Shown: in pieces, positions 14,289 through 63,644 of the stretch
Layout: each line of letters starts with the position of its first letter
How positions within the stretch are numbered: position 1 is the stretch's first letter
DNA from: Spiroplasma endosymbiont of Poecilobothrus nobilitatus
GTDB taxonomy: Bacteria; Bacillota_I; Bacilli_A; Mycoplasmatales; Mycoplasmataceae
DNA: 64,000 nt
Assembly (NCBI RefSeq): GCF_964030655.1
Contig: NZ_OZ034915.1
Coordinates: 1,054,001 to 1,118,000, forward strand
Direction of reading: 5' to 3'
The notes under the pieces: model-generated
Databases searched by the model: none
Told to the model about the DNA's origin: nothing
The model's input: only the letters and a program-made list of their open reading frames with translations
Translations under genes and position numbers: made by a program

Positions 14289-14321
14289 TATCAACACTTA
14301 AATAAAAAATATGATTTAAAT

Positions 14322-14435
14322 TGGTCGTATAAATAAAATAAGGGTTTTAGACAAATAAGAAAAAAAAATACCTTTTTAATTTATTGAACTAAATAACATT
14401 TAAAAATAAAAACCCTTATTTTCTTTATACGACCA
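14322..14435 (-). repeat. MITE-like repeat R1 with 12-bp perfect ends
   Basis: 114 bp. Ends TGGTCGTATAAA and TTTATACGACCA are perfect inverted repeats, followed inward by AATAAGGGTTTT-type arms. The middle (AAATGTTATTTAGTTCAATA in reverse orientation) is shared with R2 (15264) and R3 (19579), but the arms differ in sequence while still pairing. Confidence 0.75.
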
Positions 14436-14497
14436 ATAATTAAATAAACATTTTGGTTATCATATGTTTCATCTACAAAGTTTTTCATTTTTGCCAT
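14436..14497 (-). pseudogene. Gene start truncated by repeat R1
   Basis: ATG 14497 with an AAAGGAG site encodes MAKMKNFVDETYDNQNVYLI and then runs into the repeat arm, where the frame is lost. Unknown gene; only the 5' end remains. Confidence 0.35.
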
Positions 14498-16304: not shown

Positions 16305-17433
16305 CTTTAATTTTGTAGAAAACTCTTGATATTTATAAAATATACCTAAAATTAGGTATATTTTTAATATAAGAGGTGAATAATTAATGGAAAAAATAAT
16401 TGAAGAATTAATAAATAGTTTAACAGATGATCAATTTTTAGAATTTCATGAAAAAGTCAAAAAAGAAGCAGAATTAATTAAAAAACAAAAACGCTTAAAT
16501 TAAATTGATCAAAAATTTAGGGATAAAGGTATTAAATGTCCTAATTGTCAATCTTTTTATTGTGTTAAAAATGGTCATAATCCTGAAGGAAAACAAAAAT
16601 ATTTATGCAAAAAATGTCGTGCTAGTTTTGATGATTTTCGTGATCATTTTACGTATTGAAGTCATTTAAATTATGAACAGTGAAATTTATTGATTCAAAT
16701 TTCATTATTAGGCCAATCTAGTAAAATGATTTCCCACTTTATTAAAACATCACCGAAAACCGTTTGATATAATCGCCAAAAAATAATGAAATCAAAACAA
16801 TTAGAAAACACCCAATTAAAATTTAAAACGTTAAATGGCAAAATTCAAATCGATGAAACATTTATTAAAGAAATCCACAAAGGTAATTTTAAAGATAAAT
16901 TTGATAAAAGAAAAATTCATCTTGATTCATTTTCAACCAACACTAAATGTTGTATTAAAATGGCTGTTGATAGCAATAATAATATTTATGTTAAATCAAC
17001 CAACACAAAACTATTACAAAAACAGTGAATTATTGAAAATATTAATAAACAATTAATCAAAGAAAATTCAATTATTATTTCTGACAGGCAACCATTATAT
17101 TTATTAGTAGCAAAACAAACAAATTCTATTTTATTAGCAACTAAAACTAGTACAAATCCTGATGCTAGTTATCGGAAGTTAAATAAAATTAGTAAATTAC
17201 AATCAAATCTTAAAGAATCCTTAATTCATTATCATGGCTTAGGTTTCACGAACATTCAAAATTATTTAAATCTCTGAAAATGAAAATACCAGCATAAAGG
17301 TTTAACACCAAACCAACAATCATCGGTATTATATTTTAACGTATAAAAAAGTTAAATAACAATATTAAAAGTTTATATAATTTTCTTTTAAAGTTATCAT
17401 ATTGATGATTTTTTTTATTTCATCAAGAGTTTT
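16305..17433 (+). mobile_element. IS-D copy 1 (IS1595/ISXO2-like), 3' end cut by IS-A
   Basis: Left end CTTTAATTTTGTAGAAAACTC; the matching right end (GAGTTTTCTACAAAATTAAAG in copy 2) is lost at GAGTTTT, where IS-A begins. Confidence 0.85.
16387..17346 (+). pseudogene. IS-D transposase with one internal stop
   Basis: 319-codon ISXO2-like transposase. N-terminal acidic helix, a zinc ribbon (CPNCQSFYCVKNGHN ... YLCKKCRASF, residues about 57-80), then a DDE-type core: IQIDETFIKEIHKG, MAVDSNNNIYVKS, ISDRQPLYLLV and the C-terminal NLWKWKYQHKGL. TAA at 16501 replaces Glu (LKRLNEIDQKF in other copies), a G-to-T change. All other codons are open. Confidence 0.85.
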
Positions 17434-23279: not shown

Positions 23280-24418
23280 TTAATTTTGTAGAAAACTCTT
23301 GATGAAATAAAAAAAATCATCAATATGATAACTTTAAAAGAAAATTATATAAACTTTTAATATTGTTATTTAACTTTTTTATACGTTAAAATATAATACC
23401 GATGATTGTTGGTTTGGCGTTAAACCTTTATGCTGGTATTTTCATTTTCAGAGATTTAAATAATTTTGAATGTTTGTGAAACCTAAGCCATGATAATGAA
23501 TTAAGGATTCTTTAAGATTTGATTGTAATTTACTAATTTTATTTAACTTCCGATAACTAGCATTAGGATTTGTACTAGTTTTAGTTGCTAATAAAATAGA
23601 ATTTGTTTATTTTGCTACTAATAAATATAATGGTTGCATGTCAGAAATAATAATTGAATTTTCTTTGATTAATTGTTTATTAATATTTTCAATAATTCAC
23701 TGTTTTTGTAATCGTTTTTTGTTGGTTGATTTAACATAAATATTATTATTGCTATCAACAGCCATTTGAATACAACATTTAGTGTTGGTTGAAAATGAAT
23801 CAAGATGAATTTTTCTTTTATCAAATTTATCTTTAAAATTACCTTTGTGGATTTCTTTAATAAATGTTTCATCGATTTGAATTTGGCCATTTAACGTTTT
23901 AAATTTTAATTGGGTGTTTTCTAATTGTTTTGATTTCATTATTTTTTAGCGATTATATCAATCGGTTTTCGGTGATGTTTTAATAAAGCGGGAAATCATT
24001 TTACTAGATTGGCCTAATAATGAAATTTGAATCAATAAATTTCACTGTTCATAATTTAAATGACTTCAATACGTAAAATGATCACGAAAAGCATCAAAAC
24101 TAGCACGACATTTTTTGCATAAATATTTTTGTTTTCCTTCACGATTATGACCATTTTTAACACAATAAAAAGATTGATAATTAGGACATTTAATACCTTT
24201 ATCCCTAAATTTTTGATCAATTTCATTTAAGCGTTTTTGTTTTTTAATTAATTCTGCTTCTTTTTTGTCTTTTTCATGAAATTCTAAAAATTGATCATCT
24301 GTTAAAATATTTATTAATTCTTCAATTATTTTTTCCATTAATTATTCACCTCTTATATTAAGAATATACCTAATTTTAGGTATATTTTATAAATATCAAG
24401 AGTTTTCTACAAAATTAA
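23280..24418 (-). mobile_element. IS-D copy 2, both ends present
   Basis: About 1139 bp with inverted repeats CTTTAATTTTGTAGAAAACTC at both ends, inserted in orfA of IS-C. Similar AAATTT sequence on each side is compatible with, but does not prove, an 8-bp duplication. Confidence 0.88.
23379..24338 (-). pseudogene. IS-D transposase with two stops
   Basis: Same 320-codon frame as copy 1 with the Glu at the position of the copy 1 stop intact. CAA-to-TAA changes truncate it at 23946 (YNRQKIMK region) and again near 23609 (VAKQTNS region). Zinc ribbon CPNYQSFYCVKN has lost one cysteine. Confidence 0.85.
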
Positions 24419-58061: not shown

Positions 58062-58976
58062 TTATGCTCATTCAAAAGCATCTTCACTATTAACTGGTAC
58101 TACATTTGATATATCTTCTTCTTTAACCACATTGTCATTAGTTTATACTATTTCTTCATTATATATGATATTATTATTTATATTATTTGATAAGGTTTTG
58201 TCGCTCATTTGCCCCTGATTTTTACCAAAATTGCCATCATTATCAATATAAATCTTTTCATCATTAGTTGTAATAACTGCTTGGTCTGATTTATATGCTT
58301 GTTGTAATTCAACAGACATAATACCTCATTTTCTTAATAATGATGTTAATACAGTTTTTAATGCCATTTCATCAAAACTAGCAATATAAAATGATTTATT
58401 TTTAGCATAAGTTTTAGAGTATTTAATAAAATGATTTTCCATTTGTTCTTTTGTCATATATAATGTTTTTTCAAAACCATTAACCATTTTAAAATATGCT
58501 ACATAACCAATAATTGATAATTTTTCTCTTTCATCTTCATTTTGTATTCAATTAAAACTAGTTCCTTTTAATCGATCATAATTTACTAATTCACCAGTTC
58601 TAACATCTGATACTGACATATCTAAATATTGACCACTTCTTTGTGCTAATTGAATATAACCTTTATAACCCATTTGAAATTTAGCTTGATTAATTCATTC
58701 TTGTATTTCGCGACCATTAATATTTCTTGTTATTTTAGTGTTATATGGAACAACATAAGCATAACCAAATTATCTTTCCATAGGTAAGTTTAATAAAACA
58801 CCTTGATAACAAGCAGTCATTATAGTTTTTGGGTCTGCTTTTTGTAATAATTCATTACTATTTGATATTGCTACAATATTACTTTTAAATCTTGCAATTT
58901 CATTTTCATTTGAAAATTTACTTTTTATTCAATCATTTGCCTTATCTGTTCTTAAAAATTATACTATATTTGCCAT
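58062..58976 (-). pseudogene. recT: RecT-family single-strand annealing protein, three stops
   Basis: Phage recombinase that anneals complementary strands. RecT signatures: DPKTIMTACYQGVLLNLPME, FGYAYVVPYNTKI, QAKFQMGYKGYIQLAQRSGQ, SFDEMALKTVLTSLLRKWGI. 305 codons, normal length. TAA stops after MANIV, after LPMER and after NEEIV. Overlaps the resolvase start by 10 nt and follows the next gene by 1 nt, forming an early recombination operon. Confidence 0.88.
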
Positions 58977-61798: not shown

Positions 61799-61995
61799 TA
61801 TTCATCTCTTTTTTTATTGTCGTTTGATGTTGACCTTGCACTTATCACGACTATCGCTTAGTTCTAATGAACCAACGCCGATTTACATTTTTCCTCATAC
61901 ACTATTTCAGCACTTGCCTCGGCCGGCTGTGGGAATGAGTTTAAACTCATGTTCTTATGGAAGCACTTAGTTATTTAAAATAACCGTCCCACACT
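61799..61995 (-). ncRNA. Structured noncoding RNA candidate, 5' part
   Basis: Continuation of the region at 60245-60573 across IS-C. No ORF, G+C above background, with the perfect palindrome ATGAGTTTAAACTCAT (near 61937-61952) and GGCCGGCC-like CGGCCGGC. Together the two parts would be about 520-530 nt before the IS insertion. Confidence 0.38.
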
Positions 61996-61998
61996 GCA

Positions 61999-62238
61999 TT
62001 AAGTTGTTTTATAAAATCAAAGTTTAAAATAACCATTTTTATCATCAAAGATAATTTTTGAATTTTCTAAGCGTTTATAAAACCGCTTTTGTTTTTTATC
62101 TTTTGTCCGATTTAATAAATCTTTGTGTTTTTCACAAGTTCATAAAATTTTATTTGATAAAAATTCTTCGGTAATGAGTGATATTAATTTATAACAATCA
62201 TTAACATCACATATTGTTTGTTGCTTATTAATTTCTAT
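61999..62238 (-). CDS. Small phage protein with Cys/His cluster
   Basis: 79 aa: EINKQQTICDVNDCYKLISL, then ILWTCEKHKDLLNRTKDKKQ and a basic C terminus. CxxxxC plus CxxH could bind zinc. AAAGGAG stands correctly spaced from an ATA codon, so either ATA starts translation or the ATG was mutated. Unknown role. Confidence 0.45.
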
Positions 62239-62286
62239 TACTTACTCCTTTCTTTTATTAAGTTTTTTTATTAACAAATTAATTAA

Positions 62287-62455
62287 CTGAAACAGAGAAA
62301 GGACAACACCTTAAAATTGGAGAAAAACAGGTACACTTTGTAAAGATTTCTAAGATATTTAATAAATTTGCAAACAACTTAAAGAGGGTATCAAAAAGTT
62401 GTTATAAAAAGTTTCTATTTTAAGAATTTAAGATGCTGTCCTTTCTCTGAAACAA
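62287..62455. ncRNA. Long hairpin RNA candidate near attR
   Basis: Perfect 13-bp arms CAGAGAAAGGACA (62293-62305) and TGTCCTTTCTCTG (62437-62449), then inner helices CTTAAAAT/ATTTTAAG (62310/62417) and AACAACTT/AAGTTGTT (62373/62396), making a rod of three stacked helices with internal loops, about 157 nt. No ORF. The strand is not decided by the sequence. Confidence 0.45.
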
Positions 62456-62477
62456 TAAATAATTTGGTTTTATAAAT

Positions 62478-62515
62478 AAAAAAACAACCTTTTTATTTAA
62501 CAAGAGTTGTTTTTT
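62478..62515. terminator. Terminator next to attR
   Basis: AAAAAACAAC and GTTGTTTTTT arms, T-rich on both strands; it can end transcription entering or leaving the prophage. Confidence 0.7.
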
Positions 62516-62537
62516 GCCGCTTCATCGTACATGATAC

Positions 62538-62544
62538 ATTGTGT
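62538..62544. repeat. attR core ATTGTGT
   Basis: Preceded by phage sequence GTACATGATAC and followed by IS-D sequence TAAAAATGG. Confidence 0.8.
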
Positions 62545-63325: not shown

Positions 63326-63474
63326 AAAAGTTAAATAACAATATTAAAAGTTTATATAATTTTCTTTTAAAGTTATCATATTGATGATTTTTTTTATTTC
63401 ATCAAGAGTTTTCTACAAAATTAAAAAAATTTCTTGCAGTTTTTTCCAACAATGTTAAGATAATATTGTAATTG

Positions 63475-63560
63475 ACAGAGGTAGCTTATAAAACATAAGT
63501 TTGAGAAATACTCTTAGAACCTGATCTAGTTAACGCTAGCGTAGGGAGTTCAAATTCGTT
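63475..63560 (+). promoter_or_regulatory. TPP (THI-box) riboswitch
   Basis: Core TTGAGAAATACTCTTAGAAC then CTGATCTAGTTAACGCTAGC and GTAGGGAG match the THI element (CTGAGA, GAACCTGATCTGG-TAATGCCAGC-GTAGGGA). P4/P5 pairings CTAG/CTAG present. It stands 85 nt before a membrane protein gene and should repress it when thiamine pyrophosphate is plentiful. Confidence 0.9.
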
Positions 63561-63644
63561 ATTTATTTAATTTAATAAATTTAATTTGATGCTCACTTTC
63601 ACAGAAGTTAATTACAAAATTATTTGTGTAAGGAGATTTTTTAT

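Follow-up and report, generated by a model that had tools for sequence, protein, structure and literature searches.

A strand-specific rod RNA element near the ends of transposable Spiroplasma phages

The stretch analyzed here—64,000 nt of contig NZ_OZ034915.1 from the Spiroplasma endosymbiont of Poecilobothrus nobilitatus, hereafter the window—carries near its right edge an inverted repeat whose arms, CAGAGAAAGGACA (62293–62305) and TGTCCTTTCTCTG (62437–62449), match exactly on the plus strand and span 157 nt (62293–62449). Is this repeat the trace of an RNA and, if so, of which strand, in what element, and to what effect? We conclude with high confidence that the rod is real and that it is a conserved RNA element, specific to one strand, belonging to a transposable phage. 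Our best reading of identity and mechanism together, at a probability of about 0.5, is a structured 5′ leader of the recT early transcript of a transposable dsDNA phage.

Fold, strand, and genomic setting

Folding supported the rod on both strands but distinguished between them (z = −3.88 for plus and −6.98 for minus; 0 of 200 shuffles folded as well on either strand). An 8-bp apical helix (AACAACTT/AAGTTGTT) lies within the rod. On the plus strand the rod helix is broken into 13 + 2 + 6 pairs, whereas on the minus strand two G-U pairs bridge the gaps and make one continuous 23-bp helix of the 13-bp arm and the inner helices. A plus-strand RNA was rejected as the rod's product because it forms fewer pairs, and the sequence assigns the structure to a minus-strand RNA. 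The rod repeat is also the first listed of the window's 13 inverted repeats. The perfect 13-bp arms, the 157-nt length, and the 8-bp apical helix had been described in an earlier note, and all stand; the note had overlooked the better minus-strand fold, the outer pairing, and the repeats elsewhere in the genome.

62293–62449, minus strand: rod RNA core, comprising a 23-bp closing helix (P1), an internal loop, and an apical hairpin (folds, P1 covariation, G-U retention)
62273–62469, minus strand: weaker outer extension of the rod helix, with 43-nt arms that are 77% complementary (inverted-repeat search and folds)
62478–62516, no strand assigned: terminator-like hairpin at the phage end, with a T-run on both strands (sequence and fold)
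62519–62538, minus strand: prophage right end, TGTATCATGTACGATGAAGC reading inward, the shared edge at which host flanks diverge
62539–62541 (left counterpart 38306–38308), no strand assigned: TTG target duplication (flank comparison; joined flanks give an open transposase frame)
38309–38335, plus strand: prophage left end, TGTATTATGTAAATTC reading inward

A decayed transposable prophage of 24.2 kb (38309–62538) contains the rod, 89 bp in from its right end. This prophage carries IS insertions, and both of its ends bear TGTATYATGTA. The prophage sits inside another IS and is bounded by a 3-bp TTG target duplication; the empty site is readable, and joining the flanks there restores one open transposase frame like those of the window's other copies of that IS. 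Across copies the host flanks vary while the phage edge stays constant, with two end types, GGTCGYATG and TGTATCATG. Differing insertion flanks, together with the TTG duplication and empty site of the window copy, mark the element as a transposable phage. What had been called attR is thus a different kind of site, produced by transposition and marked by a duplicated 3-bp target.

Three other features of the window were observed. A solo or miniature element occupies 14320–14437, with two facing type A phage ends (ATTGGTCGTATAAA...) that are 60 nt apart and 97% complementary. Three places (16330–16371, 24354–24395, and 38076–38117) carry near-identical palindromes centered on ATACCTAA/TTAGGTAT, probably the ends of an IS1595-like element. 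A TPP riboswitch scoring above the Rfam gathering score lies at 63467–63565 on the plus strand, past both the prophage and the IS that it interrupts.

Distribution, covariation, and gene context

The rod stretch occurs in five copies in its own genome and in dozens of copies in other Spiroplasma. A DNA search of 14 Spiroplasma genomes matched it in five, one of them (G004) with a 28-base scrap only, and a covariance model, with only nine candidates scored per genome, placed it in 5 of the order's 320 genomes, every one a Spiroplasma. A second rod family was found by pattern in S. phoeniceum P40, and this citri/phoeniceum family is also present on S. citri plasmids. The pattern search of genome contigs returned 38 stretches; the 11 from outside Spiroplasma were taken as chance hits, the three inspected being devoid of the longer helix. 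The exact rod pattern had no match in viral contigs, and a literature search found no paper on the rod RNA. Recent acquisition, proposed earlier for the perfect arms, is not needed to explain a phage module with two diverged families.

Covariation was assessed on an alignment of 45 distinct rods. For P1 we used 33 sequences, hand-picked and with repeats omitted: 26 came from this alignment and seven from the citri/phoeniceum family. In this set, 99.0% of 718 P1 cells were paired, falling to 49–57% when the partners were slid by one to three columns, and 6 of 22 P1 pairs changed on both sides, 4 of these 6 resting on a single split between the two rod families. The P1 covariation score of 0.215 was reached by 0 of 500 shuffles, which ignore relatedness. 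P1 cells in the 45 sequences held 117 G-U against 7 A-C combinations; this excess indicates that it is the minus-strand RNA whose pairing has been retained, and it speaks against a palindrome of DNA alone. The inner helices are weakly supported (94.7% paired vs 94.3% in shuffles), and we make no claim for the interior helices P2–P4. P1 therefore shows both compensatory changes and strand-specific G-U pairs, as expected of a conserved structured RNA. The arms are conserved in homologues, and P1 covariation together with one-strand G-U retention supports the note's proposal of selection on them; the same evidence and the location in a prophage favor its idea of a phage regulatory RNA.

The apical part varies among copies. 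It is missing from three (L071–L073), and L021 1503–1659 and L051 941–1099 have apical hairpin loops of exactly opposite orientation (TTCGTTAACTT vs AAGTTAACGAA), as by template switching or inversion between arms.

Inward from the phage end, the window reads terminator, rod, orf78, RNA2, recT:

62245–62251, minus strand: Shine–Dalgarno-like AAAGGAG before orf78 (sequence; in copies sharing this Shine–Dalgarno, e.g., L133, 8 nt are complementary to the rod 3′ arm)
61999–62238, minus strand: orf78, a small ORF with Cys and His residues, here of 79 codons and carrying ATA in place of the MSRO-P1 ATG
61804–62005, minus strand: 5′ part of RNA2, interrupted by an insertion (DNA matches at genome 1115804–1115859 and 1115961–1116005)
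60406–60567, minus strand: 3′ part of RNA2 beyond the insertion (match at genome 1114406–1114567; RNA2 model match)
58143–58673, minus strand: recT fragment of the early operon (Pfam RecT, 2.4e-32)

A flank survey tested how far this order holds: 62 rows, less four antisense and two non-Spiroplasma (sorted by reading), left 56 sense rods with distinct flanks. The end terminator stood upstream of the rod in 55 of the 56; downstream, orf78 followed in 45, RNA2 in 34, and either in 48. Six of the eight sense rods with neither form one diverged group with a different downstream sequence (L057–L060, L062, L063). In this group, from G012, a hairpin-bearing region, TGGCACAC...GTGTGCCA, replaces orf78 and RNA2.

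RNA2 is a large structured RNA that may be a larger novelty than the rod. Its start follows all five rods of the own genome. A DNA search found it in 8 of 14 Spiroplasma genomes, and a model search in 8 of the order's 320; a further copy lies at L075 440–780. Thirty-two sequences gave compensatory changes in 7 of 47 predicted pairs, and its G+C looks, by eye, higher than that of its surroundings. No Rfam family matched RNA2 at the gathering score, and none was credible at E up to 10. For orf78, there was no Pfam or PHROG match below E 0.05. Some copies carry RNA2 but no rod (L092, L076, L033), so the rod is not essential to the early operon.

In the window (62470–62516), the sequence past the end terminator matches the terminator's 3′ arm and shifts together with that arm from one end type to the other. 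This match averaged −4.76 kcal/mol against −3.59 for shuffled partners, with 1 of 2000 shuffles as low under a scheme that ignores relatedness. An antiterminator on the sense strand was rejected, since the sequence lies downstream of the U-run and cannot prevent sense termination; on the other strand it would lie ahead of the terminator, in the place of an antiterminator.

An early-transcript leader and its alternatives

The opposite prophage end suggests where such a transcript might start:

38355–38382, minus strand: predicted outward-facing promoter-like site, TTGCAT-16-TATTAT (equal spacing and similar boxes in L076 and L031)

The outward promoter-like sites near the ends differ by end type, with TTGACA-16/18-TANNNT accompanying type A and TTGCAT-16-TATNAT type B; the spacers have diverged between the window, L076, and L031, and the pattern also matched one unrelated site (L024). 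Joined phage ends occur in two phage-particle contigs (OL689226, OL689227) and in the circular 22-kb plasmid NZ_CP047430, from which the rod is absent. By eye, no clear promoter lies between terminator and rod. Together with the outward site and the joined ends, this leads us to propose that circular forms transcribe the early leader from their junction.

The mechanism that we sketch for the rod is tentative. In the integrated prophage, the end terminator would keep host transcription out of the early genes. Once circularization had brought the ends together, the outward promoter of the opposite end would read across the junction toward the rod, and transcripts passing the terminator would carry the rod at their 5′ side. 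There the helix of 23–28 bp would act in cis, as an RNase III-type substrate or a protective 5′ hairpin, and the message so processed or stabilized would cover orf78, RNA2, and recT. By analogy with known leaders, the rod is probably an RNA-processing or stability hairpin; we infer all three of the start at the left-end promoter, the crossing of the terminator, and the processing of the helix. Against the leader reading, the end terminator stands between the putative promoter and the rod, and read-through must be assumed; the rod's absence from the joined-end plasmid and from some RNA2 copies also weighs against it. An extended version is doubtful on our assessment: a topology switch in which the early operon would be silent when integrated and on when the ends join, because the outward promoter of one end would then run through the terminator into a rod-plus-RNA2 leader. 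The same doubt applies to its corollary that rod and RNA2, as new RNA families, would determine how the early message is terminated, processed, or translated.

Among the alternatives, the least unlikely is a stand-alone RNA acting in trans, either 6S-like or an immunity RNA silencing other phage copies. Its length, its rod shape, and the many copies per genome would suit such a role, and the own genome yielded no 6S match in a search whose control detected 6S in 5 of 14 genomes. However, no terminator-like U-run directly follows the rod in the sequence, and the longest antisense targets in L031 and L032 were 13 and 15 nt against a control maximum of 16; the 15-nt match in L032 falls within the other phage end, where a terminal repeat resembles part of the rod interior. 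The Rfam search of the rod gave no family at the gathering score and none credible at E up to 10, 6S included. We accordingly rejected a 6S identity, to which the earlier note had likened the rod; the two have in common only a general rod shape.

Slightly less likely is a translational switch in which the rod 3′ arm (UCCUUUCU) covers the orf78 Shine–Dalgarno (AGAAAGGA) and the 5′ arm frees it, so that only whole-rod transcripts are translated; we hold both parts to be improbable. Most poulsonii-type rods with a recognized orf78 Shine–Dalgarno offer complementarity of at least 8 nt, at about −8 to −12.7 kcal/mol, but the citri/phoeniceum family offers only 5–8 nt at about −5 kcal/mol, rods persist where orf78 is lacking (L043–L045, L075), and the rod 5′ arm resembles any Shine–Dalgarno.

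More improbable again is a DNA element of the phage end—a pac site, a replication origin, or a transposase site acting as a cruciform. The fixed place near the phage end, kept with two different end types, fits such an element, yet DNA pairing leaves the one-strand preference for G-U over A-C unexplained, and some related ends have no rod. A short independent mobile element (MITE), whose ends the arms would be as the note had alternatively suggested, or a chance palindrome, is very improbable despite the multiple copies per genome: homology among the five own-genome copies continues past both arms and, across loci, up to the phage end, so that the edges are phage ends rather than arms; none of the copies seen ends exactly at its arms between target duplications; and P1 covaries.

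Relation to known systems

The rod-bearing phages are multi-copy in S. poulsonii MSRO; some members of this species are male-killing symbionts of Drosophila. Plasmids of S. citri, a pathogen of citrus, carry related phage modules. A covarying RNA at phage ends offers a handle on how a transposable phage might silence and then activate its early genes, and RNA2 is a second candidate RNA family worth curation.

Among known RNAs, 6S RNA (RF00013) is a rod of similar length, but the covariance model gave no match. RNase III-processed leader hairpins are known from phage early messages, in the lambda N leader and at the T7 early sites. The rod resembles them in presenting a long helix in what would be an early-operon leader, a likeness of architecture. 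IS circles provide a second parallel through their junction promoters. In IS3/IS30-type elements the ends join in the circle (PMC3299598). The phage likewise joins its ends, which would turn an outward promoter toward its own genes; unlike in IS circles, a single end contains the complete promoter-like site, and terminator and rod intervene.

The closest counterpart is Spiroplasma phage MaM-2019a, described in PMC12453411 as contigs of about 19 kb from phage-like particles. All three of its records (OL689226, OL689227, OL689230) carry rod and terminator at the start of the early genes, as in the window, and the rod is unannotated in them; after the rod come orf78 and RNA2, and then a series of genes that runs on to recT and ruvC. 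Unlike these contigs, the window copy is a decayed prophage with IS insertions.
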